A stretch of DNA of 64,000 bases from a virus. The notes under the pieces were generated by a model. It searched no databases. It saw only the letters and a list, made by a program, of their open reading frames with translations, and was not told where the DNA came from. Every line of letters begins with the position of its first letter. Position 1 is the first letter of the stretch. The stretch lies in the IMG/VR virus record IMGVR_UViG_3300026184_000242, positions 1-64,000 of that record; one strand, given 5' to 3'. Positions 1 through 40,350 of the stretch are shown here, piece by piece. The position numbers were made by a program, and so were the translations under genes.

Positions 1-1993
1 CCACCAAAAAGGTGATCTTTAACGCCCTGGGATTGGCCCATGTCGGTGTCTGGGGGGTCAAGGAAAGGTTCTTGCCGTAATAGGCATAATCCCCGGCCGA
101 TCCGCCGCAGGTGATCAAGATGTGGCCGTACAGAGGGGAGACGGAGCCACCGCCACTTGAGTTTGTGTAGAGCTGGTAGTCAGATGGGAGCCCGACAAGG
201 ACGAAGGACTGGTTGTTGTAGGCGACTGCGCCCTTCATTTCCACGTCCCGCCCAAGGGAGAAAGTTGCCCCGTCGTAATTCATGGACTGGTTGCCGCCGT
301 CCCCGACGTACATACGCGGCGATCCGCCGTTGTACTGTAGCTGGATACCGGCGTTACCGAAGGTGGAATTGTTCAGGGACAGGGCCTTGTTGTTCAGGTC
401 CAGGAGAATGTTGGTGCTGTTCTGGATCACGCCGCCCTGGTCCAAACCACTGGTGATCCGGGCGGAGGTGTTGTCGGCCCCCGTCTCCGAAACCGCCTTC
501 CCAGCCCCGGTCTGGACATCGTTCGCCGTGTTGTTACCGGTGACGTCCGCGCCGGACTCAGCAACCGCCTTCCCAGCCCCGGTCTGGACGTCGCTGGCGG
601 TGTGGCTGCCCGTGACGTCGGCTCCTCCCTCGGCCACGGCGTTGGTCGCCTGGGTCAGGTCCACCAGGCTGTGGTCGAAGTCCCGCGCCGTGGACAGGAG
701 GTTGTTGCCTCCGGCGTCCTTGATGAAGATGCCGTAGTCGGCGCTCCCGGTACCGAGCTTGCCGATGGTCACCCGCTTCACTGGGGTGGCCTGGCTGTCC
801 ACGATGGCTACCTGGGAGTTCGATCCGTCGAGCTGGACGTTGTTGGAGCCGATATAGACCTGGCTGGCGGTTACGGTCCCTGCGGTGATCTTGTCGGCCG
901 ACAAGTCGTTCACCTTGGCGTTGGTCACCGCCAGGTTCTGGATCTTGGCGTTGGTGATCGCCGCCCCGGCAATCTTCGCCGTGGTGACGGACAGGTTCTG
1001 GATCTTGGCCTCGGTCACCGCCGCGCTGCCGATCTTGGCCGTGGCGATGGCCCCGTCCGCGATTTTCGCCGTGTCCACCGCCACGTCGGCAAGTTTGGCG
1101 TTGGTAACCGCCAGGTTGGCGATGGCGGCCGACCCCACCGCCGCGTTCTTGATCTTGGCGCTGGTGATGGCCGCGTCGATGATGGCGGCCGAGCCGATCA
1201 CCGCGCTGCCAATCCGGGTGGGATCGGAGAGATAGTCCACCTCGATCCAGGAGCTGCCGTTGTAGCGGTAGACCTTGTCCTGGTCGGTGCGGTAGAAGAA
1301 CTCGCCGTCGTCGGGGGAGGCCGGGAAGGACGTCCCGGAAGTCCCGGCGAACCATTTGGCCACCTTGGACTGGGTGACGGCCGAGTTCGCAATCTTGTTC
1401 GCGGTGATAATGCTGTCCGTCAGGTCCGCGTTCCCCACCTTCCCGGTGGTGGCCGACACCCAGGTCTTGGAGAAGGGGCCCTTCTTGGCCGCCTCGTTCA
1501 CGAACCGCACCCAGTAGAATTTCTGGGTGGCGGCGAGCCCGACGTTGTCCGTGTAGAAGGCCGTGGTGGAGGTGCCCACCTTCACCGCCGTGGCCAGGTT
1601 GGTAGTGGAGTTGCGCCACACCTCCGTGAAGCTGTGGCTGGCGTACTTGTCGTAGGGGCTGTCCCACTGGAGGATCACGGACTGGATTGCCGACGTGGCC
1701 GTGAGCCCGGTCGGGACCGGGGGCGTCTCCACGGTGGGGGCCGGGTTGGACGGCAGGTAACTCGGAACCTTGGCCCCGGGCACGATGTTCGTGGACTGCC
1801 CGGAACCCTGCCAGGAGGAGGTGGCCAGGCCGATGTCCACCAGGTCCTTGAACCGGACGAAGGACTCGCCGTGCGGGCCGGACTGGCCCTCGCGCAACAT
1901 GACCGTGTCCCGCAGCGCCCGCAGGAGGGGCAGGGCCTGGGGGTCCTGGCTTTTGGCCGGGGGCAGCGCCTGGGCCTTGGTATCCCGGGCCAT
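1..1993 (-). CDS. Tail fibre / tail tip protein, 3' end beyond window
   Basis: The frame is open from an ATG at 1993 to the window edge, so at least 664 residues are present and the C-terminus is missing. An N-terminal segment of about 70 residues is followed by a fibronectin type III-like domain (about residues 75-165). A long helical repeat tract with recurring AKI and AVTNAKI units follows, typical of phage tail fibre and tip proteins that form trimeric coiled coils. The distal part (from about residue 380) looks like a beta-rich fibre. The start overlaps the stop of the preceding gene as TAATG, so translation is probably coupled. The role as receptor-binding or tip protein is inferred from architecture and from its place at the end of the structural module. 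Confidence 0.8.
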   Translation of the reverse strand, partial: MARDTKAQALPPAKSQDPQALPLLRALRDTVMLREGQSGPHGESFVRFKDLVDIGLATSSWQGSGQSTNIVPGAKVPSYLPSNPAPTVETPPVPTGLTATSAIQSVILQWDSPYDKYASHSFTEVWRNSTTNLATAVKVGTSTTAFYTDNVGLAATQKFYWVRFVNEAAKKGPFSKTWVSATTGKVGNADLTDSIITANKIANSAVTQSKVAKWFAGTSGTSFPASPDDGEFFYRTDQDKVYRYNGSSWIEVDYLSDPTRIGSAVIGSAAIIDAAITSAKIKNAAVGSAAIANLAVTNAKLADVAVDTAKIADGAIATAKIGSAAVTEAKIQNLSVTTAKIAGAAITNAKIQNLAVTNAKVNDLSADKITAGTVTASQVYIGSNNVQLDGSNSQVAIVDSQATPVKRVTIGKLGTGSADYGIFIKDAGGNNLLSTARDFDHSLVDLTQATNAVAEGGADVTGSHTASDVQTGAGKAVAESGADVTGNNTANDVQTGAGKAVSETGADNTSARITSGLDQGGVIQNSTNILLDLNNKALSLNNSTFGNAGIQLQYNGGSPRMYVGDGGNQSMNYDGATFSLGRDVEMKGAVAYNNQSFVLVGLPSDYQLYTNSSGGGSVSPLYGHILITCGGSAGDYAYYGKNLSLTPQTPTWANPRALKITFLV

Positions 1994-3813
1994 TAGCCGA
2001 TCTCCTGGGGCCGCGAGGCGATGGCCACCCGCTGGACTTCGTCCGTCCCTTCCAGTTCGATCTCCCAGTCCCGTGCCCGGAACCCGGACGGCAGTCGGAA
2101 GATGCCGTCACTCTGTACGCGGATTTCCGCGCCGAGCTGGCCGTCCGCGTACAGACGGAATACCAGGTCGTCAAAGCTGGTGGCGAAAACCCGACCGCAG
2201 GTGAAGTTGACCCGCTGCTGGGCCTGGAACACCTTGCTCCGCCACCGGTAGGTCAGGTTGGTCGAGCCGGCGTCCCACTTCTCGATGGAGCTGGACAGCA
2301 CCAGGAACAGGCTGTCGTTCACCAGATCCGTGTAGCCCGTGGTGGGGTACAGGTCCGTCTCCGTGAAGGTGGAGGCCGGGTTCTGGGGGTCCAGGATGAT
2401 CCCGCCCGTGCTCGCCCCATCCTTCCAGAAGGCGTGGTAGCGGTTGTTGTAGTAGTAGGCGTGGATGGAGGACGGGTTGTACGCCTGCCACTGGTCCCGG
2501 GTGAGAATGTGCTGGGTCAGGAGCTGGCCGCCGCCGGAGCTGATGAACACCAGCCCGTCGGGGCTCGGGTAGATCACCCCGCTCTGGGTGGAGACAATCC
2601 CGCGCTTGCTGACGCAGGCCTGGGGCAGGTCCACCTCCTCCATGGTCATGGAGGCCGGGTCCACCCCCGTGAGCAGGTAGGGATGGCCCTCCGTCAGGAT
2701 CACCAGGGTGGTACCGAAGGTCCCCAGGCCGACGATCTGGTAGTTCGTGGACTGGCGATAGGCCGAGGGATAGGTGTGCGGCAGGTAGGGCTCGGACAGG
2801 CAAACCTCGTTGCCAGAAAACCCCGCGAGCACTCCGTTGGCCATCCCCACCAGGCCGATCATGTCGTCCGGCGGCGTGTTGTAGTGGGCGCTCGGGATCA
2901 CCTCCCCCAGGAGGGCCGGGGGCACCGAATCGTCGAAGGTGGTGTACCCGATGGCCCGCTCCCCCACGTAGACGTATTCCCCGTTGGTCGTGCCCGCGTG
3001 GTAGCGGTAGACCCTGAACTTGGCCATGTTGTAGGCCCCGGTGGGGGCGTCGGGGATATTGGAGAGGGAGATTCGGGTGCGGAAATTGCCGTCCGCCGTC
3101 GCGTTGCCGATGGATTCGTTGGTGACGATGTTGGTCTGATCGTTGCCGCTGTCGTAGGAGGCCGAGGAGACGGTGTAGTTGCCGTCGTTGCCCGTACTGC
3201 CGACGATGGCCGCCGTATCCCCCGAGCCCCAGCTTGAGGTCTGGTCCCCGCTCACCGTCACCGTATTGCTCCCGGTGGCCACGGCGACGATGTCGTGGTC
3301 CCTCCAGTAGGCCGACACCACCGCGCTCGGATCGGAAGGCTGGCCCTCCTCGCCGTAGTCGCTGACATAGGTGGTGACGTAGGCGATGTCCTCCTTGTTG
3401 GCCGGGTCCGAGCTGTCCTGGAAGGACAGCGTGGGGCCATTGGCCGGCTTGGGGACCTCCAGGAGGTACTCGGTGGAGGGATAGGGATGGGCCCCCGTGG
3501 CCACCGTGTGGTCCGTCTTTTTGGGTTTGCCGTCCCCAGTCCAGTAGACGCGCTTGTAGCTGTCGTTGGCGATGGGGGAGCGCACCACGTCCACGTCCTG
3601 GTTCCACTCGAACCAGTAGTTCCACTGGTAGTGGTAGATCGTGGTGGGGGTGGCCACGGTGACGTTGTACGCCTGGTCGGCGGTGCCCTTCCAGGGCTCC
3701 AGGCTCCCGGTCCACAGGCGCGTGTTGGTCGCCGTCTGCGCCTGGTGGCTGTCCAGGAGCTTGGGGTCCTTGGCCGGCAGCATGCCCGCGAAGCCCTCGA
3801 TCTGGACCTTCAT
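1993..3813 (-). CDS. Virion structural protein, probable tail component
   Basis: This 606-residue protein starts MKVQIEGFAGMLPAKDPKLL and is rich in beta-strand-like, Tyr/Trp-containing segments with no signal peptide or membrane segment. It sits between the fibre gene downstream and small virion proteins upstream, with 4-base overlaps (ATGA and TAATG) on both sides. Large proteins with this kind of N-terminus occur in podovirus tail modules as tail or tail-needle/stabilisation proteins, but the sequence alone does not decide which. The start has the ATGA coupling to the 100-residue gene. Confidence 0.7.
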   Translation of the reverse strand: MKVQIEGFAGMLPAKDPKLLDSHQAQTATNTRLWTGSLEPWKGTADQAYNVTVATPTTIYHYQWNYWFEWNQDVDVVRSPIANDSYKRVYWTGDGKPKKTDHTVATGAHPYPSTEYLLEVPKPANGPTLSFQDSSDPANKEDIAYVTTYVSDYGEEGQPSDPSAVVSAYWRDHDIVAVATGSNTVTVSGDQTSSWGSGDTAAIVGSTGNDGNYTVSSASYDSGNDQTNIVTNESIGNATADGNFRTRISLSNIPDAPTGAYNMAKFRVYRYHAGTTNGEYVYVGERAIGYTTFDDSVPPALLGEVIPSAHYNTPPDDMIGLVGMANGVLAGFSGNEVCLSEPYLPHTYPSAYRQSTNYQIVGLGTFGTTLVILTEGHPYLLTGVDPASMTMEEVDLPQACVSKRGIVSTQSGVIYPSPDGLVFISSGGGQLLTQHILTRDQWQAYNPSSIHAYYYNNRYHAFWKDGASTGGIILDPQNPASTFTETDLYPTTGYTDLVNDSLFLVLSSSIEKWDAGSTNLTYRWRSKVFQAQQRVNFTCGRVFATSFDDLVFRLYADGQLGAEIRVQSDGIFRLPSGFRARDWEIELEGTDEVQRVAIASRPQEIG

Positions 3814-4116: not shown

Positions 4117-7100
4117 CTACCCCTTCCAGGACGTGGAGCGCCCGGGTCCGGTCCATTTGGTCAGCCGCAATTCCGAGCCCCATACGGTGGGCCGGGCCAG
4201 GGCCACCCAGCTTTCTGCGGGGCCCTTGGGCAGGTAGCCCACTCGGAAGGCCTGCGCCGTGACGGAGGCGTACCCGGCCTGCGCGGTGCCGGTGGCGGCC
4301 TGGGACTGGCTCTGCGTGGAGGAAACCGTCGCGTCCGAGGCCTGGACGGCGGCGGTGCCCTGGCGGACGAAAATACCCTTGGCGGTGCTGGTGGCCGGCT
4401 GGGCGGAGACTGCGGCGGTACCAGTGCGCTTCCCCAGGAACAGCCCGGTTGCGGACACCGTTGCCGGATCGGCGGCTACTGCTGCCGTCCCGGTACGCTT
4501 GCCGAGGAACTGCCCGGTGCCGGCCGTGGTGGCCGGTTGTGCAGAGGCGGTCGCCGTGGCGGTGAGGCTCTTTGTCGCCGTGGCGGCTGCGGTCGCCGGT
4601 TGCGCCGAGACGGTGGCGGTTGCGGTGAGATTCTTGGTCGCCGCGCCGACCGTGCCGGAGGCGCTGACAGTGGCCGCCTGGGCCGTGGCCGCCCCAGTGG
4701 CGGTCCAGGTGACGGTGCCCGAGGCCGTGGCGGTGGCCGGTTGCGCCGCTGCGGCGGCAGTACCGGTCTGGGTGGCGAAGGCGCTGCCCGACGCGCTGAC
4801 GGTGGCGTCCTGGGCGCTTGCGGCGGCGGTGGCCGTTCGCACCCGGCCGGCGCTACCTGCGGTCGTGGCGTCCCCGGCCTGCGCGGCCCCCTGGGCGTCG
4901 ATGGCTCCGGTGGGGTCCTGGAAGAACAGGGTTGGGACGTTGACGTCGGCCGGGGGCGGGGTAACGACGTCCAGGGTCATCCCCATGGTGTCGTAGTGGA
5001 GCAGGTTGGCCACCAGATAGGCGCTGGACTCCAGAAGCTCCAGGCTGTTGTTCCAGGTCTCCGTGGTGTTGGAGCTGGTCACCCCGTCGGCAAAGTAGGT
5101 GCCCACCGACCGGTCATTGCCGGCCCCTCCGGCCATGAGCAGGGAGGCGGACTCGGCATGGGCTCCCGTCACCCAGGTGCCTGCTGTCCCGACCTTGGAG
5201 GCCAGACCCACCAGGCCCTTGGCCTGGAAGCCCTGCCCGGGGGTGTAGCTGGTGGTCCCCGAGTCGGTGCTGGCGATCACCGTGGTGGCGCTGGCCACCT
5301 GCCCGGACCCCCACCGCAGGGCCAGGTAGGGGATCAGGGCCCCGCCCGAATCGCCCCGGGTGGGGTTGATCCCGAGTGTGAACCCGTCCGATGCCCACGA
5401 GCTGACGTTGGCGGACCACCCCCAGCCACCCGCGCCGTCGCAGCTCCCCGCCACCTCGCTCTGGTCCCAAATCTCCTGGACGTCGGTGGGATTCGCGCCG
5501 CTCGCCGTGTAGCGGAGGAGGCAGTTGGCCCCGCCGGAGGGCGTATCCCAGCCGAAGGACAGGGTGCCGTCCGCCGTCACCGAGCTGGCCGCGAAGGCGG
5601 TCTGGTTGGTATTGGCGAACAGCACGGCGCTGGGGGAGAAGCCCGTCGTCACCGAGGAGGAGCTTCCGGCCACACCCCCGGTAACGTAGCCGGCCTGGGC
5701 CTGGACCGAGTCTCCGGCGAATAGCTGCACCACCACGGTGTCGCCGTCCTGAGCCACCCCGAAGTCGAGCTGGATCCCCGTCTGCCCATTACCGGAGTCC
5801 GCAATCCAGGCATTGAAGGCGGCCTGGGTCTTGCGGTTGAAGCTGGAGAGGTCGTAGAGCCAGCGGACCGCGCAGTTGGTGTTGTCGAGCGCCCGCGCGG
5901 TGGCCGCCCCGCTGCTGCCGTCCTGGCCCATTAGGGTGGCCGTGAACTGGCTGGTCCCGTCGGTGAAGCCGACGCTCAGGTTCTCCCCCGAAGCAACCGC
6001 GCCAGCTCCGCCGATGTGGCTGACGAAGATCAGCGCCGCCTTGGGCGTCTTGCCCCCCAGGGCGGAGGTGGTGATGTCTAGGGTGCCCGGCGTGGTCGGC
6101 GCGGTAGCCACCACCGTGGCGACGTGAACGTCCGTGGTCCGGGACGCCTCCGCGCTGACGGTTGCGTCGGAGGCCTGAGCCGCCCCGGACCCGGTGATGT
6201 CGGGGCCGCCCGCCGCCGGGTCCTCGAAGGCTATGGTCGGGAAGTAGAGGGTCGCCCCAGGGCTGGTGCCAACATTCAGCGCGAAGCCGTCCGCCTGGAT
6301 GGAGCCGAAGGTGCCGCTCCAGATCGTGGCCGGCGTCACCTCGTCCATGATCTCCCAGTGGTCGTGGAATACCGTCCACGTGGACTCCCGGGAGCTGGTC
6401 GAGGCGGCCAGGGCAGGAATGGGGTTGAGAGCCCCCATATTGCCCTGTGCGTCGAGCATGGCCAGGCCATGTCCGCAGGCCTGGGTGACGTCGTAATAGA
6501 GGTTGTCAGTGGCCTCCGCTCGCGTCAGGTAGCCGAATACCGCCTGGGGCTGGAAACCGTAGCCGGTGAACGAGGTCGTGCCACTGTCGGCGGAGCCCAC
6601 GGACTGGATCACCGAGGCAATTTGGGAGTTGGAGCCCCACTGGATCGCCAGCCAGTACAGGTAGGTCAGGCTGTAGTAGCTGGCGGACGGGGTGACCGAG
6701 AACCCCGAGGCATCAAAATTGCTGATGGTGTAGTAGAAATCGAGGGAGCCGGTGTTCATGCCACCGACCGCCCCGCTGGTTATGATCTCCTGGGTGTCCT
6801 CTTCCGAGGTGGAGGAATAGCCGCCCTTGACGTTGCTGACCACCGACGTCTGCGTTGGCCCGCCATCGTTGATGGCCCAGCCTAGCGAGGTCCACCAGAA
6901 ATACCCCTCCGGGGCGTTGAGGGTGGAGGCCTCCACGTAGTTGAACAGCACCGCGTCCGGGGTGAACCCCGGGGCTGTCACGTTCTGGGTGGCGGTGGAG
7001 CTGGCCGGCATGTCGGTCCGGCCGTGCTTGACCTGGAGGTCGGCACCGGCCAGGAAAAGGACCTGGAAGTAGGCCCCGCTCGTGACCGTGTCCATTTGCA

Positions 7101-7455
7101 GGGTCACCCCATTGGTGATCCAGGCGCTGAATGCCCCCTGCACGTCCCAAATGAAATCGTTGGTCCCCTGGTTCGCGTGGCCGGCCCGCAGGCAGTAGGA
7201 CTCCGTCTGCTCCGTGCGGGTGAAGTTGATGTAGTCGTCGTTCTTGGCCGCCACGCAAGACTGGGAGTTGCCGTCGGTGGAGCCGATGGAGTAGATGGCA
7301 TCGACAACGGTGCTGTTCACCGTCGTGTTGCGCGAGCCCAGGAAGATCGCCGCCTTGGGGGTTAGCCCGCCCAGGTCGGTGGTGGTGAAGTCATGGGTGC
7401 CGGTGGCGGAGGGGCACGTAAAGGTGGCCACCACCGCTTTTAGTTGCTCGGCCAT
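4117..7455 (-). CDS. Large fibre-like virion protein with duplicated domain and Ala/Thr repeats
   Basis: This 1112-residue protein has two related halves. Residues about 1-430 and 440-850 share a start motif (LGG-TPKAA) and a later G-GFQ motif, so a beta-rich domain has been duplicated. Residues about 850-1050 consist of roughly a dozen imperfect 13-16-residue repeats built around SAQPATVSASGT-like units, some separated by FLGKRTGTAA. The C-terminus is short and basic/aromatic. It is probably an appendage or host-binding protein. It ends the run of genes that begins with the two sulfotransferases and its start abuts their 3' end, so it is a conceivable substrate or partner, which is inference only. 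Confidence 0.7.
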   Translation of the reverse strand: MAEQLKAVVATFTCPSATGTHDFTTTDLGGLTPKAAIFLGSRNTTVNSTVVDAIYSIGSTDGNSQSCVAAKNDDYINFTRTEQTESYCLRAGHANQGTNDFIWDVQGAFSAWITNGVTLQMDTVTSGAYFQVLFLAGADLQVKHGRTDMPASSTATQNVTAPGFTPDAVLFNYVEASTLNAPEGYFWWTSLGWAINDGGPTQTSVVSNVKGGYSSTSEEDTQEIITSGAVGGMNTGSLDFYYTISNFDASGFSVTPSASYYSLTYLYWLAIQWGSNSQIASVIQSVGSADSGTTSFTGYGFQPQAVFGYLTRAEATDNLYYDVTQACGHGLAMLDAQGNMGALNPIPALAASTSSRESTWTVFHDHWEIMDEVTPATIWSGTFGSIQADGFALNVGTSPGATLYFPTIAFEDPAAGGPDITGSGAAQASDATVSAEASRTTDVHVATVVATAPTTPGTLDITTSALGGKTPKAALIFVSHIGGAGAVASGENLSVGFTDGTSQFTATLMGQDGSSGAATARALDNTNCAVRWLYDLSSFNRKTQAAFNAWIADSGNGQTGIQLDFGVAQDGDTVVVQLFAGDSVQAQAGYVTGGVAGSSSSVTTGFSPSAVLFANTNQTAFAASSVTADGTLSFGWDTPSGGANCLLRYTASGANPTDVQEIWDQSEVAGSCDGAGGWGWSANVSSWASDGFTLGINPTRGDSGGALIPYLALRWGSGQVASATTVIASTDSGTTSYTPGQGFQAKGLVGLASKVGTAGTWVTGAHAESASLLMAGGAGNDRSVGTYFADGVTSSNTTETWNNSLELLESSAYLVANLLHYDTMGMTLDVVTPPPADVNVPTLFFQDPTGAIDAQGAAQAGDATTAGSAGRVRTATAAASAQDATVSASGSAFATQTGTAAAAAQPATATASGTVTWTATGAATAQAATVSASGTVGAATKNLTATATVSAQPATAAATATKSLTATATASAQPATTAGTGQFLGKRTGTAAVAADPATVSATGLFLGKRTGTAAVSAQPATSTAKGIFVRQGTAAVQASDATVSSTQSQSQAATGTAQAGYASVTAQAFRVGYLPKGPAESWVALARPTVWGSELRLTKWTGPGRSTSWKG

Positions 7456-8130
7456 TTACGCCCCTCGCTGTTTTCGCGCTTCCCGGCAGAATCTCCGATA
7501 CAGGGCCCGCGCCAGCCGCGCCCGGCCCGGGTCCAGGGCCTCCAGGTCCCCCCATCCAATCGGGCCCGCCCGGTGGGTGGCGCTCGTCGGATTGGGGATC
7601 GGTACCTGGGGCATGGCGCATTGCCATCCCAGGGTCTGGCGGATCAGCGGCCAGTGTTTCGGTATCCGCTCCAGCTCCAGGCGCAGGCCCTGCGGCGGGG
7701 TCTGCTCCCAGACGCGCCAGTGCGTCTCCAGCCAGACCACCAGGCCGTAGTGGAGTAGGTCGCCATTGGTCGCGCCCTGGGGGGAGGCCGGCACGTCGTA
7801 GCCGAGCTGGTGGAACCAGCCGAGGAAGCGGTCCCGACCGGTCAGGAACCAGGCCAACGAGGGCACCGCCGTCAACGGGTGGCGCATGAGCCACCAGCGG
7901 TGATCGAACTCGTAGGCGTCGGGGTGATTGGATGGTATGGGGTACCAGTGATGCCGGCTGTGGAAGAAGCCGGTGCAAAGCCCGAAGGCGTCGGGCCGCT
8001 CATGCCCGATATGGGCTCCCGCGCGGCGCAGGAGGTTGGAGAGGTAAGTGGTGCCCCCTTTTGGGCAGCCCTGGATCAGTAGCGTCTTGTGGCCGCCCTC
8101 AGAAACTAGCTGCGGCTCGAACTGGCTCAT
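7456..8130 (-). CDS. Sulfotransferase-like P-loop protein
   Basis: The 224-residue product begins with a strand and loop, CPKGGTTYLSNLL (residues 22-34), which matches the 5'-phosphosulfate-binding loop of PAPS-dependent sulfotransferases (PKSGTT). The central region has the charged and aromatic make-up of the family, but the second conserved motif (3'-phosphate binding, R...S) is weaker than in the upstream neighbour. It overlaps that true sulfotransferase by 32 bases, so the two are co-translated. It may be a divergent second enzyme or a partner subunit. A kinase-like P-loop protein is less likely because the loop lacks GxxGxGKS. Confidence 0.65.
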   Translation of the reverse strand: MSQFEPQLVSEGGHKTLLIQGCPKGGTTYLSNLLRRAGAHIGHERPDAFGLCTGFFHSRHHWYPIPSNHPDAYEFDHRWWLMRHPLTAVPSLAWFLTGRDRFLGWFHQLGYDVPASPQGATNGDLLHYGLVVWLETHWRVWEQTPPQGLRLELERIPKHWPLIRQTLGWQCAMPQVPIPNPTSATHRAGPIGWGDLEALDPGRARLARALYRRFCREARKQRGA

Positions 8131-8950
8131 AGCCCAGCATCTGCATTACCTCGCGGTGATCGGCCTCCAGCTTTTCCACGATTTCGCGCGGGACCACCTC
8201 CTGCCAGCCGCCGGCCGTGCCACGCTTGAAGAAGTCGCCGGCCTTGGGGCTCGCCTCGCGGAAGCCGTTCTCCTGCTCCTGGCGGCGCAGGTGGTCGAAG
8301 CTGGCCAGCTCCACGGCGAGGTCCAGGCGCTCCTCGTCAACCGAGAGGCCGAGGTGCTCCAGCACCTGCTGGAACTCGCCCCGGGGGTCCTCCAGGAGGT
8401 CCTCGTAGCGCAAAACCTTGACGGGGATGGACTCCTGCTCGGCCCAGCTCCGCACGTGCTGGGACCACGTGGTCAGGTGGTGATAGATGCCCAGGTTGCC
8501 CTGGTCCAGACAGGACCCCATGTTGTTCATGGACTCGGCCGCCTGCTCCAGGGTGTGCCCCATGTGGTCGGCGTAGCTCACCAGCACGTCCCTGGGGTCG
8601 CGGACCACGTAGACCGAGGGCCCGGACATTTCCTGGGGGATCAGGTCCACCGACCCCGCCCGCACGTTGGCGTTGTGGGATTTCAGGACCACGGGGTTGT
8701 GCGGGAACCGGGCGATGATATGGGCCAGGGCGGCATGGCGCAGGAACAGGATCTCGGCCGGCGTCATGTCCTTGAGCTGGGTCGGGGCCACCGTGTGATA
8801 GGCGTACGGCTGGCAATCCCCCACCACGATCTCCCCCGACATATTGATGTCCAGGGTCCCCCACCGGTAGGCGGTCAGCATCATCCGGACCCAGGTGTTG
8901 CCGGATTTCGGCCAGCTCGCCAGCCAGCTCACTTGCCGTAGAACCCCCAT
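8099..8950 (-). CDS. PAPS-dependent sulfotransferase
   Basis: This 283-residue protein has all hallmarks of the cytosolic sulfotransferase fold. They are the PAPS loop WPKSGNTW (13-20), a catalytic-type His in KSHN (90-93), the 3'-phosphate motif YVVRDPRDVLVSY (114-126), the helix motif RYEDLLEDP (181-189), and a C-terminal FKRGTAGGW (241-249) equivalent to the RKGxxGDW loop. The reaction would be transfer of sulfate from PAPS to a hydroxyl or amine. The start follows a perfect GGAGGACGCC leader. The location inside the tail gene cluster suggests modification of a virion component or of a host surface molecule; the substrate cannot be read from sequence. Confidence 0.92.
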   Translation of the reverse strand: MGVLRQVSWLASWPKSGNTWVRMMLTAYRWGTLDINMSGEIVVGDCQPYAYHTVAPTQLKDMTPAEILFLRHAALAHIIARFPHNPVVLKSHNANVRAGSVDLIPQEMSGPSVYVVRDPRDVLVSYADHMGHTLEQAAESMNNMGSCLDQGNLGIYHHLTTWSQHVRSWAEQESIPVKVLRYEDLLEDPRGEFQQVLEHLGLSVDEERLDLAVELASFDHLRRQEQENGFREASPKAGDFFKRGTAGGWQEVVPREIVEKLEADHREVMQMLGYEPVRAAASF

Positions 8951-8959
8951 GGCGTCCTC

Positions 8960-9349
8960 CTAGTTCGGCGCAGAATAGGTAAACGAGGTGATCTGGATTT
9001 TATCGCCGCTGGCGATGTTGGTGTTGGACAGGTTCAGGTCGGAGCCGGTGGTGGCCACCGCCCCGGTGAACATGGTGGAGTCGTCCCGATCCCGGATCTT
9101 GAACTCGGCCGCCGTGCCCGTGGCGGTGGCGGTTCCCGAGGGCGAACCGTTCATGGTCGCGGTCCCACCGGAGGCGGCCCCGAAGGCCGGGTTCTGGAGC
9201 GGGATGGAAACCAGGGTGGTTGGGGTGCCTCCCCCGGTGGTGATGATCAGATTACCCACCGTGGTGGCGGTGGCGGTTCCGGTGTCCACCTGATCCACGA
9301 CGTTGTTCGCCAAGCCGTTTCGGATCGTGGCCGGATGGGTGATGGCCAT
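8960..9349 (-). CDS. Small Gly/Thr-rich virion protein, unknown
   Basis: The 129-residue protein starts MAITHPATIRNGLANNVVDQ and is rich in Thr, Gly and Ala, with alternating hydrophobic positions typical of a beta-sandwich virion protein. It has a good ribosome site (AGGAGGAATAACCC). It sits in the late operon 9 bases upstream of the sulfotransferase gene. It resembles hypothetical structural proteins of podophages in general character; the function is unknown. Confidence 0.65.
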   Translation of the reverse strand: MAITHPATIRNGLANNVVDQVDTGTATATTVGNLIITTGGGTPTTLVSIPLQNPAFGAASGGTATMNGSPSGTATATGTAAEFKIRDRDDSTMFTGAVATTGSDLNLSNTNIASGDKIQITSFTYSAPN

Positions 9350-11151: not shown

Positions 11152-11777
11152 ATCCACGGGCGCATCTGGGCCTGGGTATTGGCGCGGCGGGTGTTGAAGG
11201 CGTTGCGCTTCGCCTCGGTCAGCTTGGCCAGGTATTCGCGCAGCTTCTCCTGGGCCATGTCCGGATTGGACCATGGCTGACCGGAAACCCGCATGAGCCG
11301 ATATTTGGCCCGGAGGAGGATGGCGTCCCGGTAGTGGGTGGCAATCCAGTCCGGAATATCCGAACTGTCGGTTGTGGGCACAAGGGAAACCAGGAAGTAG
11401 AGGGTCTTGGTTTCGTTTGCCGTGGGTTCCGGCCAGATCAGGAAGCCATCGTCGTCCATAGCCGGAGCGAAATTCCGGGGCGGGCCGGTCCCCGCCTTGC
11501 GGAAAAGGTCCTCGTAGTTGGCGTCATAGACCGGCCGCTGGTCGTACCAGCATTGCTCATAGTTGTCGATCCGCGTCCCCGACGGGATAGACAGGTCCGA
11601 GCTGGGATACTGGGACTGGCCGGCGGTGAGCGTCATGGACAGGGTGGTGCGGTAAAGCCCCGAGTCCTTGAGCAGGTCGATGGCGGCGTAGCGCACCTCG
11701 TGCTCCACGTAGAAGATCGGGGCGTCCTGCACTTCGTCCAACACGCCCGGGGCCAGGGACTGGTAGGTGGTCGCCAT
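11148..11777 (-). CDS. Head-tail adaptor-like protein
   Basis: The 209-residue protein has an N-terminal helix-rich part and a central beta-rich part (GTRIDNYEQCWYDQRPVYDA...GPPRNFAPAMDDDGFLIWPEP). This order is typical of podovirus adaptor proteins of the SU10 or gp11 kind. A C-terminal helix carries many Arg/Lys. It sits between the DUF6682 gene and the lysis genes and overlaps the former by one base. The family assignment rests on pattern and position. Confidence 0.65.
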   Translation of the reverse strand: MATTYQSLAPGVLDEVQDAPIFYVEHEVRYAAIDLLKDSGLYRTTLSMTLTAGQSQYPSSDLSIPSGTRIDNYEQCWYDQRPVYDANYEDLFRKAGTGPPRNFAPAMDDDGFLIWPEPTANETKTLYFLVSLVPTTDSSDIPDWIATHYRDAILLRAKYRLMRVSGQPWSNPDMAQEKLREYLAKLTEAKRNAFNTRRANTQAQMRPWI

Positions 11778-12502
11778 CAGCCACCCCCACCACCCTGGGC
11801 CCGCTCCCGGGTGTCCATGGAGGCACCGGGGATGGTGAACAGGTCCGTGTTGCCCTTGATTCCCAGGCTCTGCGAGAACGCCTTGTAGTGGGCGTTGGCG
11901 AGTTGGGCGCTGCCGAAGTCCGCATCCTTGGAGTAGGCGCGGTACAAAACGTAATCCAGGAGGGCGTTGGCGTAGACGTCGTCCAGCGAAATGCTGTCCG
12001 AAAGGGTGACGTCCTGCGGGGAGCTGGAGTAAAGAAGCTCCACGTAATTGGTCCCGGTGCCCGGTTGCGGCGGGTAGACATAGAACGTCTTGGGATCCCG
12101 CTCGTCGTGCATGAAGTGCATGGCCTCGGCGGCCGTCTGACCGGAATGCCAGTCGGGAACCTGGTAGTCGATGATCTTGCGCTCGATCACCGTGACCGAC
12201 CGGCCCGGGGTGGAACCACCGGTCCCCATATTCCGCACCACGTCGATCAGCCGGATGCCTGCCCCGATGTTGGTCCCGGAGTTGTCCGGGTCGCTGGCCA
12301 GGTCGTTGAAATTCTGCTTGGACCCGGACACCAGCCGCACCGTCTCGTTGTCGGCGTGGGCGGAGGGGTCCAGCAGGACCGTCTCCCGCTGGCCGTCGTT
12401 GAGCCAGTCCAGAAGCTCGCTCTCGGGCCAGCGAACGCTGGTGGTGTCCTGGAGGATCACCCCGGCGCGGTCCACGATTTGCTGGGCCTTGATGGTACTC
12501 AT
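11777..12502 (-). CDS. DUF6682 family head-tail adaptor protein
   Basis: The 241-residue protein matches the DUF6682 pattern. It has RWPESELLDWLNDGQRETVL near the N-terminus, IRLIDVVRNMG, PDWHSGQTA, ERDPKTFYVYPPQP and a C-terminal ALLDYVLYRAYSKDAD helix. The family is found in podophage head-tail modules and probably acts as the adaptor between portal and tail. It follows a small gene and the capsid genes in the late operon. The C-terminus ends in a Gly run. Confidence 0.85.
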   Translation of the reverse strand: MSTIKAQQIVDRAGVILQDTTSVRWPESELLDWLNDGQRETVLLDPSAHADNETVRLVSGSKQNFNDLASDPDNSGTNIGAGIRLIDVVRNMGTGGSTPGRSVTVIERKIIDYQVPDWHSGQTAAEAMHFMHDERDPKTFYVYPPQPGTGTNYVELLYSSSPQDVTLSDSISLDDVYANALLDYVLYRAYSKDADFGSAQLANAHYKAFSQSLGIKGNTDLFTIPGASMDTRERAQGGGGG

Positions 12503-13397: not shown

Positions 13398-14324
13398 TCA
13401 GCCCTTCTTGGCGTAGAAGTGGCCGATGGCCTCCGGCTTCACCACCTTGTAGCCATACACGTGGAGGCCCCGGTACTTGTCCCCGAAGGTGAACTCGGAG
13501 CGCATGGGGCCCTCGTTCCGGACAAGCTGGGAGGCGAAGGTAATCGCCGTCTGGTGACCGAACATCATGTTGGTCACCATGCTCCCGCCGTCGGTGGAGT
13601 GGGCCAGGCTGTTGGAGCTGTAGATCGTGAAGCGGTCGATCTGTCCCAGGCGGCCGTTGCGAACGATGGAGGTGCCATCCCCAGCCAGGCTTGCGTCCTG
13701 GAGATCGGACTTCTTGATCATGGCGCAAGCCCAGGGCGGCATAACCACCCAGCGGTTGGACTCGGGGACGTTCTGCTCGTCGAGCACCACGCCCATGTCC
13801 ACCAGGTAGTCCACGATGTTGGACTTATCCAGGGAGACGGGGGCCCCGGTGGAGCCCAGGTCGATGGAGCTGGAGATCGCCCCAGCCGAGGACCCCTTGT
13901 TCGCGGCAGCCACGTCGGCGTAGACGTTGGCCAGGAGGTCGGAGTCAATCTTGATCTTGAGCTGCTCCGAGGCGTCCTGGGTCCAGTCCTCCACGTAATC
14001 GTAGTCGGACTGGTACTTGTCCACGTCGTCGGACGTGAAGGCCCAATACTTGCCCTGGTCGATGGTCAGATCCACCAGATCGGGCTCGGGGTTCTCGTAG
14101 TCGAGCTGCTGCCCCTTGGAGTAGTCCTTGATGGTAATGCTGGGGGTCGTCCGAATGTGGACGGTATCGCCCATATCGGAGATTTCACCCTCGTAGTCCG
14201 TATTGGCGATTTCCCCGAACACGGTTGCCTTGTAGAACTTCACGAGGATTTTTCCCGACCAAATCTCAGGGATCATCACACCAGAATGGTCGGGATGGCC
14301 TGCACTCACAGGATAAACAGCCAT
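13398..14324 (-). CDS. Major capsid protein
   Basis: The 308-residue protein has the N-terminal PEIWSGKILVKFYKATVFGE signature of coat proteins found with scaffold genes in podoviruses, followed by TVHIRTTPSITIKDY and a central helical spine. It has the expected length and lies directly after the scaffold. The HK97-type fold is known for the family and is not visible directly. A terminator lies just upstream, so the gene may have its own promoter or depend on read-through. Confidence 0.88.
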   Translation of the reverse strand: MAVYPVSAGHPDHSGVMIPEIWSGKILVKFYKATVFGEIANTDYEGEISDMGDTVHIRTTPSITIKDYSKGQQLDYENPEPDLVDLTIDQGKYWAFTSDDVDKYQSDYDYVEDWTQDASEQLKIKIDSDLLANVYADVAAANKGSSAGAISSSIDLGSTGAPVSLDKSNIVDYLVDMGVVLDEQNVPESNRWVVMPPWACAMIKKSDLQDASLAGDGTSIVRNGRLGQIDRFTIYSSNSLAHSTDGGSMVTNMMFGHQTAITFASQLVRNEGPMRSEFTFGDKYRGLHVYGYKVVKPEAIGHFYAKKG

Positions 14325-16199: not shown

Positions 16200-18314
16200 T
16201 TACCCCTGCTGGTGCTCGGGCCCGCCAGCCGGCGAACCATCTGGGTTGGTTTTCTGCGGCGCGGCCTGGCTCGGCCCCTGCTGACCCGGTGCCTCCTGGC
16301 CCGTGCCCTGGCCGGGCGGGACCTGCTGGCCCTGGGCCATGGCCATGCGCCGTTGAATGGCCTCCTCGCGGCGGATCTCGTCGGGATCGGGGACTACTTC
16401 GTCCACGTCCACGTTGAGGTGTTTGGCGGCCTCGCGCAGGAGGGCGGCGCGTCCGGCGCGTCCGATGATGCTCATGTCGAACTCGTTGGTGGTCGCCTTG
16501 AGGAACTCGTTGCGCCGCGTGTTCTCCTGCTCGCGGGCCACCAGGGACTGGCTGCCCTGCGCCTGGACGGACAGGTCGCCCTTAATGGACTCGTCGTCCA
16601 GGTACAGCATGTTGTGCAGATACTGGCGGAACACCGTGGTTTCCACCAGGCCCACGTCGATATGGGCGATCACCCGGCGGATGCCCTTGGACGTCTGCTG
16701 GAGGAGCATATGGAGCCCGGAGGCCGTGTCGGCGGCTCCGCCCATGTCGGACTGGCCGTAGGCGTAGGCCGGGATCCCCGTGTAGTCGTCGGCCAGGCGG
16801 GCGTAGTAGTCGTAGATCGACATAAGCTCCTTGGCCAGGGAGTTGGGCTGGAAGAACTCCACCGGGGGGCGGTGGCTGCTGGCCACGGCGCTGTCGCCCT
16901 CGAACTGCCAGACCTTCCATGGATACAGTGCTGTCACCTGCTCGCCGGCCGGGATCCGGTTAATGTCGTTGATCGCAACCTGGGGCCCGGACGCTATGCC
17001 CATGTTGTTGGCAAGGGCGCGGGCGGCGGCGTTGCACATGGCCTGGGTGTCGCGCATCAGCTCCGAGACGCCCTTCCCCCAGAAGGCCCCGGGGATCACC
17101 TCGTAGCTGGCCTTGGACAGGGGCCGGGCCGGAACCGGGTCGTCCGCCACCACCGCCTTGATCACCCAGGAGCCGATCAGCCAGGCCTCCACCTCGTACT
17201 GCCGGGAGGGGTTTTCCACCTTCAAGCCCCACTCGGCCAGGTCCTGTCCGGAGGCGGGGCCGAAATACTGGAGCGCCTCGATCTTGTCCGAGTTCTGGTA
17301 GTAGAAGCCCTGGTCCCGCTCCTCGATCTCGCGGCGCTGCTGGTCGATGGCCACGTATTCGTGGTAGCCCTTGTTGTTGTACTCCTCCAGCACCGCGCGG
17401 ATGGCCTCGTCGTCGTATCCCTCCACCCCGATCATGGCCTCCAGGTCATGGCGGGACAGCCGGTGGCGGCGGAACAGGTAGGAGTCGTCCACGTCCACGG
17501 CGTCGGGGGCCGGGTAGATGTCGAAGGGGGAGACGCGCTCATACTCCAGGGTGTGCTCCTCCTCGACCTTCGGCTGGTAACCACCAGGGCCCTGCTCCCA
17601 GCGGAGCTTGCGCTTGCGGCGCACGATAGGCCCGGCGACAAAGCCGGCCTTCGAGGTCACCACGTCCGAAATGGCTTCGTCCATGGCCGCCCGCCACTTC
17701 CCCTCCAGGAACTGGTCCGCGATGGTGTGCTCCATGCGCTGGGCAATCTCCTGGGCCTGGTCCTTGACCTCCTTCTCGATCTCCTGACGGACCTCCTGGG
17801 CTCGTTCGTGGATCTGCTGGGGGGTCATAGGGGCCCCCATCATTTCCTCTTGCTGGGCGGCCTCCATGCCCACCTGATGGCCGATCCGCTGCTCCATGTC
17901 CGGGGGCAGCTCCGGCTCCGGGGACGGCTTCAAGGACCACGGGTTGGCGTCGGCCGGCAGCATGACGTCCCGGATCCAGGCCTCGGCGGCCCGGCACTTC
18001 ACCGACGTCAGCATCATGTAGATTTCCGAGCCGCCCTGCTTCCGGATCTCCGCCAGCTTGTCCGGGTCGTACTCCCCGTTGCGCTGGCGGTAGTCCCGGA
18101 GCATTTCCTGCTCGATCTCGCGCTTGGCGTTCTTGGCCGTCTCCCACTTGCGCCGCATTTCCCCAGCCAGGGCCAGGATATGGGGCTGGGACTGGCGCTG
18201 CTCGGCCAGCTCGCGCTCGGAGCGCCGGGCCTCCAGCTCGTCGTTGGGGACCAAGCGCATATAGCTGATGGAGGCACCGCCGGTCTGGTTGTTCTGGGGC
18301 GTCATTGCGGTCAT
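16200..18314 (-). CDS. Portal protein
   Basis: The 704-residue protein has the length and make-up of a podovirus portal. It has a helical Glu/Gln-rich N-terminal third, SEIYMMLTSVKCRAAEAWIRDVM (about 95-118), a central wing/stem region with AFWGKGVSELMRDTQAMCNA, and a Gln/Pro/Gly-rich C-terminal tail of about 80 residues. It lies upstream of scaffold and capsid genes and downstream of the large terminase, as usual. It would form the dodecameric ring for DNA packaging and tail attachment. Confidence 0.88.
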   Translation of the reverse strand: MTAMTPQNNQTGGASISYMRLVPNDELEARRSERELAEQRQSQPHILALAGEMRRKWETAKNAKREIEQEMLRDYRQRNGEYDPDKLAEIRKQGGSEIYMMLTSVKCRAAEAWIRDVMLPADANPWSLKPSPEPELPPDMEQRIGHQVGMEAAQQEEMMGAPMTPQQIHERAQEVRQEIEKEVKDQAQEIAQRMEHTIADQFLEGKWRAAMDEAISDVVTSKAGFVAGPIVRRKRKLRWEQGPGGYQPKVEEEHTLEYERVSPFDIYPAPDAVDVDDSYLFRRHRLSRHDLEAMIGVEGYDDEAIRAVLEEYNNKGYHEYVAIDQQRREIEERDQGFYYQNSDKIEALQYFGPASGQDLAEWGLKVENPSRQYEVEAWLIGSWVIKAVVADDPVPARPLSKASYEVIPGAFWGKGVSELMRDTQAMCNAAARALANNMGIASGPQVAINDINRIPAGEQVTALYPWKVWQFEGDSAVASSHRPPVEFFQPNSLAKELMSIYDYYARLADDYTGIPAYAYGQSDMGGAADTASGLHMLLQQTSKGIRRVIAHIDVGLVETTVFRQYLHNMLYLDDESIKGDLSVQAQGSQSLVAREQENTRRNEFLKATTNEFDMSIIGRAGRAALLREAAKHLNVDVDEVVPDPDEIRREEAIQRRMAMAQGQQVPPGQGTGQEAPGQQGPSQAAPQKTNPDGSPAGGPEHQQG

Positions 18315-19219: not shown

Positions 19220-19435
19220 TCACTGTTCCCTGGCGAACCCGGCCTGCATGAGTTCCACCACGCTCTGGAAGTCCTCGGTGGTCATGGAGGGCAGCTCCTC
19301 CGGATCGACCCACCACTTGGCCACCTTGGTGGACCCGGTCGGATGCACCAGGAAGCGGACCCGGCCCTGCTGGAACCAAAACCAGGATTGCCCGAAGGTT
19401 GTGCGCAGAATCTCGTTGGCTTGTTGGGCGTCCAT
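19220..19435 (-). CDS. Small protein, unknown
   Basis: The chosen ATG (19435) overlaps the terminase stop as TAATG and has AAAGGA eight bases upstream. The 71-residue product is aromatic-rich (FGQSWFWFQQGRVRFLVHP). Function unknown. Confidence 0.6.
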   Translation of the reverse strand: MDAQQANEILRTTFGQSWFWFQQGRVRFLVHPTGSTKVAKWWVDPEELPSMTTEDFQSVVELMQAGFAREQ

Positions 19436-21735
19436 TACGTCCATCCTTTGGCTGAGGGCACCACGATCTGGCGCGGTGCTCGATGTTTTGGCCCGAAGGT
19501 ATGCGCCGAGGCCAGTACCTGGAATGCGTCCGCGCCGTGGGAGGCCCAATCATGGCGCGGCTGGTTTTTCCAGGTCCCGCGCTTGTCGTCCCACTCCTTG
19601 CGGTACGCGGCCAGCACCCCCAGCCCCTCCTGGCAATGTTCCTCGTCAAAATAGCAATACCCCAGGAAGTTGCGGGCGGCCTGGATGGCGTCCTCCTTGC
19701 GGTCGGGCCGGTTGGCGATCTCGAAGTGGATGCCAAGCTGCGCCGCTGTCTCCCAGCGGCTTTTCCCCGTCCCCATTTCCCGGACGGCGATGTCATGCGG
19801 CGCGGTATGGGTACCGTAGCGCCAGCCCCGCTCCCGCGCCTTCTGGTGGAGCATGTCGATGTAGTAGGGGATACCCTCTCCGGAGTCCTCGAAGTAGTCC
19901 ACCACCCACACCTCGCGCCCCACCGTCTGCGTAAACCAGATCGCGGTGGAGTCCCCCACCCCCAGGTCCCACCACGTATCCACGGATACCGCCTTCTCCG
20001 GCGTGATCCGCGTCACCCGCCCCTCCTGACGGGCCTCCGAAAGCTGGCGGGCGAAGTACGCGCCGTACAGGGTCGCCTGGAACGCCTCCTCCGGCGTGGA
20101 CGGATGCTCCTTGAGCATATCTTTGCCCTGCTGCTTCTCCTTGAGCACGTACCAGGCCTTTTGCCGAGCATCCAGCTCGATCCCGTACTCCTTGGCCAGC
20201 CGGTCGAAGTAATCCTGCAACCGCTGGCCGATCACCACCCGGTTCGCCTCCTCCGCCGTCAACCGGTACGAAGGCTCCTTCCACCAGGGGTAGAAGTGGA
20301 ACTCCATATCCAGCCGGGTCAGCGGCCGGTCCTGCTCCTGACGCTCCTGGGCCGCCATGGCCATGTCATAGAACACGCCCTCCTGGCCCTCCGCCGTGGA
20401 CTCCACCCACACCATCCCGGACTGGGGCACCGCCTCCAACGACCCGCTTTTGATCTCCTGGGCCTTGTCCGGATGCTTGGCCGCCAGCCTCCCATACTCC
20501 GATATATGCAGGAGCTGGACCGTCCCCGACCGGGCGGAAGTTGTCACGCGGATCGAAGATCCGTTCTCGAAAACCAGCTCGGCGGATTGCTCCGTCTCCG
20601 TCACCCGCGCCTGCTGGAGCGCCTCCGGCAGGTTGTCATACGGGAACTTCACCTTCTCCCGGAAGATCCGGCCGGCATCCTCCAGGGTATGGGCGATGAT
20701 CGCCGCCGACACGTGGTTGTTGAACAAGCACGTATCCAGGATGAACAGGTCGATGAAGGTGGTGTTGTGGGAGACGAACCCTTCCGCGATGTACGTGCCC
20801 ACGTCCGTCTGGAGGTCAATGAGCGTCTGTTCCCCCAGCTCCTCGATGGATTCGATCCGACTCCAGCCTATCCTGCCATTGCGCTTCCCGGGCAGCTCGC
20901 GGCCCTCCCAGAAACGGTCGCCAAGGAAGCGGCTGGGGCGGGTCTGCCCGACCAGGCGGAACAGCTCGTCCATCCGGCCCATGGCCAGCTTGGGCACCGG
21001 GTTGGCCCCGAACCGGCTGGGGCGGTCGTTGTCGTCCTCGATCCGGTAGTGGTAGCCATGGGCGTCCAGGTAATCGACCATCCGATCCCAGACCGCGCCC
21101 TCGCGCTGCGCCACCGTCACTCCGGCCGACGTATTGCCGTTGGCGATGGAGCCTTCCCCGTCGAGCATCCCGCCGAACCAGCCGTCCTCGGCCTCGGGGG
21201 CGTCCCACGGGCGGGTGACCCAGCGCACGTAGGTCCCCGGGGTGAGCTTCTTCTTGTTGTCGGATTCGATGGTCCGCCAGTCCGTGCCGGTCCCGGCCTT
21301 CTTGGAAAGCCAGGGGTGCTTGCCGGTGCAGACCACCGACCGGCCATCGTCGAAGGTAATTCGATACGCCTTTCGGTACACCTCGACCACACCCTGGACG
21401 GTGGCGGTCCGCATTTTGCGGGCCCGCCCGCGCCCGCCAGGCGGGTATTCGTCCACCGACACGATCTGCTGGCCCGGTTCCAGGTCGGCGATCTGGACCC
21501 ATTGCAGCTCGGCCGTCAGGACCCGGGTGCTTGGGTCCAGGCAGAACCCAATCTGCCGCGCCTTCAAGATCAGGTTCCGGTACCACATGGACCGGTACAG
21601 GTCCGCCTGGGCCCAATTCGCCCGGAACGGCACCACGTTCGAGTCCCGGTCCACCACCTTGTATAGCCGGTTAAGCCGCGCCCACTGATTGCGTAGAAGC
21701 TGCCGCGACAGCTCCCGCTCCTTCGCCTCGGCCAT
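19435..21735 (-). CDS. terL: Terminase large subunit with in-frame intein
   Basis: The start chosen is the ATG at 21735 behind GGAGGTGTT; 42 upstream codons are low-complexity shadow. The 766-residue precursor is a packaging ATPase and nuclease split by an intein at residues 65-324. Joining the flanks gives LKARQIGF-TTFIDL, a variant Walker A loop. After the intein come a Walker B region LLHISEYG (408-415), motif III ESTAEG (445-450), and an RNase H-type nuclease with WWDLGVGDS (588-596, Asp590). The spliced enzyme would be 506 residues, normal for the family. It heads the late operon. Confidence 0.93.
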   Translation of the reverse strand: MAEAKERELSRQLLRNQWARLNRLYKVVDRDSNVVPFRANWAQADLYRSMWYRNLILKARQIGFCLDPSTRVLTAELQWVQIADLEPGQQIVSVDEYPPGGRGRARKMRTATVQGVVEVYRKAYRITFDDGRSVVCTGKHPWLSKKAGTGTDWRTIESDNKKKLTPGTYVRWVTRPWDAPEAEDGWFGGMLDGEGSIANGNTSAGVTVAQREGAVWDRMVDYLDAHGYHYRIEDDNDRPSRFGANPVPKLAMGRMDELFRLVGQTRPSRFLGDRFWEGRELPGKRNGRIGWSRIESIEELGEQTLIDLQTDVGTYIAEGFVSHNTTFIDLFILDTCLFNNHVSAAIIAHTLEDAGRIFREKVKFPYDNLPEALQQARVTETEQSAELVFENGSSIRVTTSARSGTVQLLHISEYGRLAAKHPDKAQEIKSGSLEAVPQSGMVWVESTAEGQEGVFYDMAMAAQERQEQDRPLTRLDMEFHFYPWWKEPSYRLTAEEANRVVIGQRLQDYFDRLAKEYGIELDARQKAWYVLKEKQQGKDMLKEHPSTPEEAFQATLYGAYFARQLSEARQEGRVTRITPEKAVSVDTWWDLGVGDSTAIWFTQTVGREVWVVDYFEDSGEGIPYYIDMLHQKARERGWRYGTHTAPHDIAVREMGTGKSRWETAAQLGIHFEIANRPDRKEDAIQAARNFLGYCYFDEEHCQEGLGVLAAYRKEWDDKRGTWKNQPRHDWASHGADAFQVLASAHTFGPKHRAPRQIVVPSAKGWT
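20764..21543 (-). other. Intein with LAGLIDADG-type domain inside terminase
   Basis: The 260-residue insert starts with Cys65 (CLDPSTRVLT, block A) and has a block B TGKHPWL (137-143). A homing-endonuclease motif GGMLDGEGSI (188-197) follows, then block F DLQTDVGTYIAEGF and a terminal His-Asn (323-324) before Thr325. All splicing residues (Cys1, TxxH, HN, +1 Thr) are present, so it should splice. Only one clear LAGLIDADG-like motif is seen, so a homing enzyme would probably act as a dimer or be decayed. The insertion is exactly at the nucleotide-binding loop, a site where inteins favour conserved, essential sequence. Confidence 0.92.
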
Positions 21736-21783
21736 AACACCTCCACCACCAGGTGGGTCCTCCTGGACCCCCCGGCACGAGCT

Positions 21784-22037
21784 GGGGCCCCATGAGCTTG
21801 TCGTGGGGCCCCATAGAACCTTGCAACCCCCATGGGATACTGCCCCCCGAGGCCATCGCACTAGAGGACTGAATCAATGGGACTTTTAACTTTGCTACTT
21901 CTGTGCAGCGGGGCCCCTATTTTTGGGTCCTACTGGGAGTCCCGGGCTTTATGGGGCCCCTTGGGATTTTGGCGATTGTTCGGGGGGAGAACCTGACTGG
22001 AGCGGTCCACCCCCCCGGCCCCCGGGGGTGGGGCCCC
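21784..22037. repeat. Five copies of GGGGCCCC next to terL
   Basis: The octamer GGGGCCCC occurs at 21784, 21805, 21910, 21953 and 22030, several times as TGGGGCCCC. They cluster just upstream of the large terminase gene in a stretch without a gene. They could be packaging or regulator sites, or may simply reflect low-complexity GC sequence. Confidence 0.5.
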
Positions 22038-39534: not shown

Positions 39535-40350
39535 ATGGGCGATGGGAATTGTTCTGACCCCCGGATGATTAGAGACGTCTACGTCCGGGAGCTGGGGGAT
39601 GGAAAGGATTGGTACGGGGAAGTCCGGGCCGAGTTCGTTCCTTCCCGCAGCCTGGGGTGGATCGGGGTTACGGGTTTTCACCAGGAGGCCAGCGAAGATC
39701 CTGGATTCGACTTTCCTGTAGCCGTGGTAGGGGTAACCCGGGAGGAGCTGATCGAGTCCGCTATCCTGGTGCGGGATGCCCTGCGCCAGTGGGGCACCCA
39801 GCTCACCGCCGGCCACCGGCCCACCGAGGCCAGGCAGGGTTTGCGCCGGGCCAAGCGGGCCATTCTGGGGGAGGCGGAGCCGGAGCCAGCCAAGACTCCG
39901 AGTAAACAACCCGCCCCCACCGAGAAACCTGCCAACCAACAAGGTTGCACCCTCAACCCAGACGGCAAAACCTACTCCGTTCCCCCCCACCTTCTCCGCA
40001 GCCCGCCCAGCTCCAATCCCCGCGCCCAGAAGTGGACCCAGGTCCCCCGGGCTGACCAATTCGTTAGCGACCCCTCTTGGCGTGGCCGGAAAGTGGAGGA
40101 GCTGGAGCTTGGGCCCTACCCGCGCGGCCGGCTTTTGGCCGCAGGGATCCGGAGGCTGGGGCAACTCCAGGACTTCACGGAGGCCGACCTGGCCCAGATC
40201 CAAGGCATTGGCACCGATACCGCCCGCGCCATCCTGACCACCATCAACCAGTACGTGGCCTGGGAAGGAAGCGGAAAGAAGGTCACACGGGCCCGCGACC
40301 GCAACCCAAACCCGGCCAAGACCAAGGCCAAGCCCAAGGAGCTTTTCTGA
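39535..40350 (+). CDS. Protein with RNA polymerase alpha-CTD-like helix-hairpin-helix domain
   Basis: The 271-residue product has an N-terminal alpha/beta region (residues 1-110), a Pro/Lys-rich linker (about 120-190) and a C-terminal segment LLAAGIRRLGQLQDFTEADL followed by AQIQGIGTDTARAILTTINQ. That segment looks like the helix-hairpin-helix fold of the RNA polymerase alpha C-terminal domain. It starts the recombination operon and abuts the exonuclease gene. It may bind DNA or host polymerase. Confidence 0.65.
   Translation: MGDGNCSDPRMIRDVYVRELGDGKDWYGEVRAEFVPSRSLGWIGVTGFHQEASEDPGFDFPVAVVGVTREELIESAILVRDALRQWGTQLTAGHRPTEARQGLRRAKRAILGEAEPEPAKTPSKQPAPTEKPANQQGCTLNPDGKTYSVPPHLLRSPPSSNPRAQKWTQVPRADQFVSDPSWRGRKVEELELGPYPRGRLLAAGIRRLGQLQDFTEADLAQIQGIGTDTARAILTTINQYVAWEGSGKKVTRARDRNPNPAKTKAKPKELF

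Follow-up and report, generated by a model that had tools for sequence, protein, structure and literature searches.

Genes A and B within a phage virion operon

We analysed positions 1 to 64,000 (the window) of the 64,379-base IMG/VR virus record IMGVR_UViG_3300026184_000242, which has a G+C content of 65%. Family searches place two overlapping genes, here termed A and B, in a virion operon of late-type structural genes on the minus strand. The operon runs from an 808-aa large terminase-type protein (19435-21861, with a sub-threshold match to the intein-splicing family PF14890 at 153-366) through a portal/head-tail adaptor protein (16200-18314; phrog_332, SU10_portal), the major head protein (13398-14324; phrog_267, 9.4e-64), structural proteins of phrog_399 (connector region, 11777-12502; 3.9e-54) and phrog_437, and a spanin-like gene. 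It continues with a 129-aa virion structural protein (8960-9349; phrog_3758, 2.2e-15), A, B, a gene for a repeat-rich putative appendage of 1112 aa (4117-7455) that gave zero family matches in Pfam and PHROG searches, and an internal virion protein that serves as a marker of the virion operon (1993-3813; phrog_511, 1.3e-156). The earlier note had assigned A and B to a tail module; the virion-structural setting holds, and the term is loose for a position between portal/capsid/adaptor-type genes and internal virion proteins. At the opposite end of the record, also on the minus strand, lies a 3486-aa polyvalent protein with InPase, RadC and LPD38 domains (50714-61174) that is probably packaged and injected. 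The phrog_511 protein finds its best match in phage phiARM81mr and is common to Burkholderia, Stx and Vibrio podoviruses, and we infer that the phage is a Bcep22/BPP-1-type podovirus.

Both reading frames proposed in the earlier note are present on the minus strand: A extends from 8950 to 8099 (283 aa) and B from 8130 to 7456 (224 aa), with a 32-nt overlap, and the large repeat-rich gene starts at 7455 directly after B with 0 bp between them, as had been described. The G+C content at the three codon positions (0.68/0.40/0.90 in A and 0.68/0.51/0.85 in B) matches that of the remaining phage genes, so A and B look like genuine genes.

A is clearly a PAPS-type sulfotransferase by its sequence, in agreement with the initial assignment. 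It matches Sulfotransfer_1 (PF00685) with E=9e-26 and 91.2 bits against a cut-off of 22, over residues 8-271, which represent the whole domain, and its top PDB sequence matches are human SULT1A enzymes, led by SULT1A3 (5.6e-21). Every catalytic motif is found: a 5'-PSB loop PKSGNTW at residues 14-20 (pattern PKSGxTW), the catalytic histidine H92 in a KSH motif, a 3'-PB motif formed by R117 and S125 (RxxxxxxxS), and a C-terminal PAPS motif of the RxGxxGxW type that reads FFKRGTAGGW. In an alignment of A with four alphaproteobacterial homologs, the PKSGxTW and RYED motifs and residues H92, R117, S125, F240, F241, G244 and W249 are all invariant. Inspection of the sequence revealed no apparent signal peptide, and A should therefore act in the cytoplasm. 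Like members of the SULT superfamily such as cytosolic SULT1A and Teg12/StaL, A is a cytosolic, single-domain protein with all catalytic motifs; it differs from them in belonging to a viral lineage embedded in virion operons.

Sequence and modelled fold of B

The designation of B as a second sulfotransferase proved to be partly justified. Its sole Pfam match is to Sulfotransfer_3 (PF13469), spanning the PKGGTT loop and falling below the cut-off (E=0.047; 14.4 bits against 27), and a PDB sequence search returned nothing. B encodes a 5'-PSB-like PKGGTTY loop, a GHE motif and a 3'-PB-like RHPLTAVPS motif, and a degenerate DNA pattern of the P-loop and GHE recovered three viral relatives, all of which share the RHPLxxxxS motif that was absent from the search pattern. 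A profile scan contributed a fifth family member (L194), and a further relative occurs in a cyanomyovirus-like record (phage C48C1). Both PAPS motifs are present in L189, L190, L191 and L194, and R83 and S91 of B are invariant in the five-row alignment, at ~20-29% identity between B and its relatives. The relatives, too, are without a PF13469 match.

We built an AlphaFold model of B on the five-row alignment, which is of low confidence (pLDDT 50.9, pTM 0.47), as is a single-sequence fold model (pLDDT 39.7). In the low-confidence AlphaFold model, the order of elements (beta/P-loop/alpha ... beta/alpha) is that expected of SULT enzymes; Foldseek returned a sulfotransferase as the first PDB match, weakly (E ~0.2), and in a second structural comparison sulfotransferases occupy every one of the first 32 ranks (Z 3.9-5.2), with adenylate kinases entering from rank 33. 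On the basis of its motifs and this tentative model, B appears to be a divergent, small sulfotransferase-like protein outside PF13469. There is an appreciable chance that B is inactive as a sulfotransferase and is instead a P-loop protein that binds PAP(S) or another nucleotide and merely assists A, in keeping with its score below the Pfam cut-off, the low model confidence (pLDDT 51, pTM 0.47) and its low identity to relatives. Against this reading, every relative retains both the 5'-PSB-like and the 3'-PB-like motif, and sulfotransferases fill the head of the structural match list. Cyanophage Sulfotransfer_3-type proteins annotated as sulfotransferase family protein (~200 aa) resemble B in size and weakly in fold; however, B lies below the PF13469 cut-off and a B profile finds no match in P-SSM7, and we dropped these weak structural matches as candidate members of the B family.

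Viral relatives of B are rare. Searches of 50,697 phage records for close relatives recovered none of A even at E=10, none of B at E=0.01, and none of three further viral A-type proteins, and thus no cultured phage offers a handle on this system. B also lacks a tblastn match in plasmids, a relative in genome contigs, and a profile match in 385 genomes from the same class as genome G066, the last in a search run without a positive control. In the virus of L194 (6010-7631), the B-type protein lies directly before a 330-aa gene that looks glycosyltransferase-like from its sequence.

Viral and bacterial neighbourhoods of A-type genes

The earlier note raised the question of whether related phages keep A and B together beside the same fibre gene, and comparative analysis does not support this. 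The A+B pair occurs only in the window and in one contig that is near-identical across the region (1 mismatch in 11,781 bases), and PF00685 and PF13469 are both absent from the available sequence of 16 contigs that encode a phrog_511 protein, several of which are fragments. The 1112-aa gene is likewise not a recurrent neighbour of A-type genes, with a weak match in one A-bearing locus only; what recurs instead is the placement of A directly downstream of phrog_3758. The pair and its link to the 1112-aa gene are not conserved; the combination of A and the 129-aa virion gene before it is. We also considered whether viruses with an A-type gene carry a B-like gene as a second enzyme and rejected this possibility, as 47 records have essentially one A-type gene each and two such genes occur in L038 and L041.

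In phiARM81mr (L023, 9819-11452), the site that holds the sulfotransferase cassette in the window is taken up by a reverse transcriptase gene and an Avd-like one, probably a diversity-generating retroelement, with the equivalent structural genes on one side and the internal virion protein on the other, indicating that the slot is variable. A similar retroelement was considered for the window and set aside, as no reverse transcriptase appeared among the window proteins tested. In another relative with phrog_399 and phrog_511 proteins (L052), phrog_3758 and A lie beyond phrog_511, on the opposite side, a location implying that the two genes stayed together through rearrangement.

We examined A-type genes across viruses with a profile scan of viral contigs, which yielded 76 loci; the lineage of A counts 69 viral homologs. 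The gene directly before the A-type gene encodes a phrog_3758 protein in 10 viral loci, a P22-type major capsid protein in eight and a Gp80 head fibre (Podophage GP4 fibre I) in five, and in more loci other small proteins beside capsid genes take this position. Of 69 upstream neighbours, 63 are co-directional with the A-type gene and 56 lie within 60 bp of it. The closest relative of A (L033, 44% identity) is encoded in the order HK97-type capsid protein, 137-aa protein, sulfotransferase, head-tail adaptor. A-type genes directly adjoin an annotated virion gene in 33 of 67 loci, compared with 13.8 on average and at most 26 in 5000 trials of random placement within the same loci, a comparison that counts loci with their shared ancestry ignored. 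This context fits a virion-linked role; from location, the earlier note had argued for a virion- or receptor-related target. In trees with the best 80 of >500 bacterial sequences, the viral/bacterial label changes 3-4 times compared with ~30-53 times when labels are shuffled, which argues that most viral copies are not recent acquisitions from hosts. A thus belongs to a mostly virus-specific lineage, with viral and bacterial sequences almost fully apart in the tree.

Some loci depart from the virion setting, among them L035, with an A-type gene beside a DNA methyltransferase, and L093. In the latter viral contig, three consecutive genes (4410-7293) encode a tryptophan halogenase, an endonuclease V-like protein and the sulfotransferase, possibly as a small tailoring cluster.

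The position of A and B may also reflect accessory cargo whose substrate is a small metabolite of the host or the phage, with the virion-gene location merely a tolerated insertion site. We regard this as distinctly unlikely. Small phenols and alcohols are frequent substrates of enzymes with SULT-type folds, and A finds its best PDB matches in human SULT1A enzymes; the phiARM81mr slot holds an unrelated cassette, and near relatives are without A and B. Opposing this, the lineage is mostly viral and deeply diverged, is kept beside virion genes in several capsid types, and is tightly coupled to the upstream gene. The adjacency itself could nonetheless owe part of its strength to an insertion site that tolerates accessory genes.

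Among bacterial relatives of A (best 80 of >500), a Porin_4-type gene lies directly before the sulfotransferase gene or genes on the same strand in 24 of 80 loci, and 25 of 80 carry at least two sulfotransferases. Genomes encode 0-4 porins each in a sample of 41, placing this link far above chance. In L108, L116, L118, L136, L138 and other loci, between one and three PF00685 sulfotransferases come after an alphaproteobacterial porin gene. This recurrent arrangement suggests porin sulfation, and we found no description of it in the literature searched. Sulfotransferase-linked porins show no enrichment of tyrosine or of tyrosine in an acidic context over control porins. The porin-linked tandem enzymes of Roseovarius, Sneathiella and Neomegalonema share 33-39% identity with A and, like A, are encoded close behind a surface-protein gene on the same strand, often in pairs; both members of such pairs are A-type, unlike B, and they fall on a separate side of the tree from viral A.

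A second bacterial setting, found in 15 of the same 80 loci, contains an Asn-synthase-type gene; where the surroundings of this gene were checked, they include PqqD and HPr-kinase-like genes. The sulfotransferases of these neighbourhoods are A homologs. By analogy these neighbourhoods resemble lasso-peptide clusters, in which HPr-kinase homologs modify a serine of the precursor and which have been noted to contain putative sulfotransferase genes (PMC8498205), with a putative role in peptide tailoring. More distant kin of A in Niveispirillum and Dinoroseobacter (26-27% identity) lie among glycosyltransferase and O-antigen genes.

Candidate substrates and a proposed role for A and B

As the best explanation of these patterns, we tentatively propose that A sulfates a virion surface protein during assembly. 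A would be a cytoplasmic PAPS-dependent sulfotransferase made late alongside virion proteins, drawing PAPS from the host. As particles assemble, a side-chain hydroxyl of Tyr, Ser or Thr in a virion surface protein would most likely receive the sulfate, which would give the virion surface a permanent negative charge. We favour the 129-aa phrog_3758 protein, whose gene lies 9 bp upstream of A, as the candidate acceptor, with the 1112-aa appendage downstream as the second choice. B may act as a divergent sulfotransferase-like partner that serves a second site or substrate. We infer from sequence and gene context that A is catalytically active, that its acceptor is a protein and which protein this is, when transfer occurs, and that adsorption or stability is affected. 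The 129-aa protein has a single tyrosine, near its C-terminus, that is not kept in most homologs. Profile comparison detected no common ancestry among the small upstream proteins of different phages, and with these proteins differing in this way no common acceptor site is visible.

An alternative, which we consider unlikely, is that A, with or without B, sulfates a host surface glycan (LPS, capsule or exopolysaccharide) late in infection and thereby blocks superinfection or prevents progeny from binding debris. Phages commonly modify host LPS, the distant bacterial homologs of A lie among glycosyltransferase and O-antigen genes, and the B relative in L194 directly precedes the gene that looks glycosyltransferase-like. 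However, none of 48 virus records with an A-type gene, the window among them, has a GT2 glycosyltransferase that scores over the cut-off, A-type genes occupy late virion-operon positions alongside small virion genes in unrelated phages, and the closest bacterial kin neighbour porins and lasso-peptide-like genes and not glycan clusters. The adjacency to virion genes, the lack of GT2 enzymes in these records and the bacterial neighbourhoods lead us to favour a virion protein over a host glycan. It is very improbable that the target of A is instead an outer-membrane protein of the host, for example a porin that serves as phage receptor, in mimicry of the bacterial porin-linked enzymes. The location of the closest bacterial homologs directly after Porin_4 genes invites this idea, but the viral enzymes stand apart from porin-linked clades in the tree, no porin is found among the annotated phage genes, and the gene position argues for a co-encoded virion partner.

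The candidate acceptors across these settings (virion proteins, porin precursors and lasso precursors) are all proteins that pass through the cytoplasm and are accessible there, and the simplest common reading is that the lineage sulfates proteins. More speculatively, and with less confidence than for A itself, the viral lineage may modify capsid, decoration or fibre proteins such that the particles of several phage groups are sulfated, and the sister bacterial lineage may sulfate porins; the two would then amount to a system of protein sulfation in prokaryotes that has gone unrecognised. Sulfation of proteins is known chiefly from eukaryotes. The proposed reaction of A likens it to RaxST/TPST protein tyrosine sulfotransferases, which were not the closest sequence relatives of A found; RaxST, which sulfates a protein (PMC4216712), is the one bacterial enzyme of this kind that we met in the literature searched.

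The earlier note called sulfation of a tail protein or host envelope glycan by a phage rarely described, which needs a qualification: several reports have annotated sulfotransferases in phages. PF13469 proteins in Synechococcus and OM43 phages are listed among auxiliary metabolic genes with no known role and their function is called unclear (PMC10580990), as it is for further phage sulfotransferase annotations (PMC8290583). In the literature searched, outside of which lay most subscription papers and bioRxiv, we found no paper tying phage sulfotransferases to virion genes or porins. Such annotations alone are already known; new here is that the A-type lineage is mostly viral and recurs beside virion genes in unrelated phages. 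The consistent link to virion genes across capsid types and to bacterial porins points to a specific, testable role in the covalent sulfation of virion and outer-membrane proteins, and gene context gives a hint that certain viruses may chemically add sulfate to coats or fibres of their own. If so, phages could tune particle surface charge, adsorption or immunity without sequence change.

Elsewhere in the window, the phage encodes on the plus strand a TROVE/Ro60-type RNA-binding protein (47098-48465; PF05731, 4.5e-12; phrog_850), with no Y RNA or other Rfam family detected in an Rfam scan of the window, and a RecE-like exonuclease and RecT recombination pair (39535-41999).
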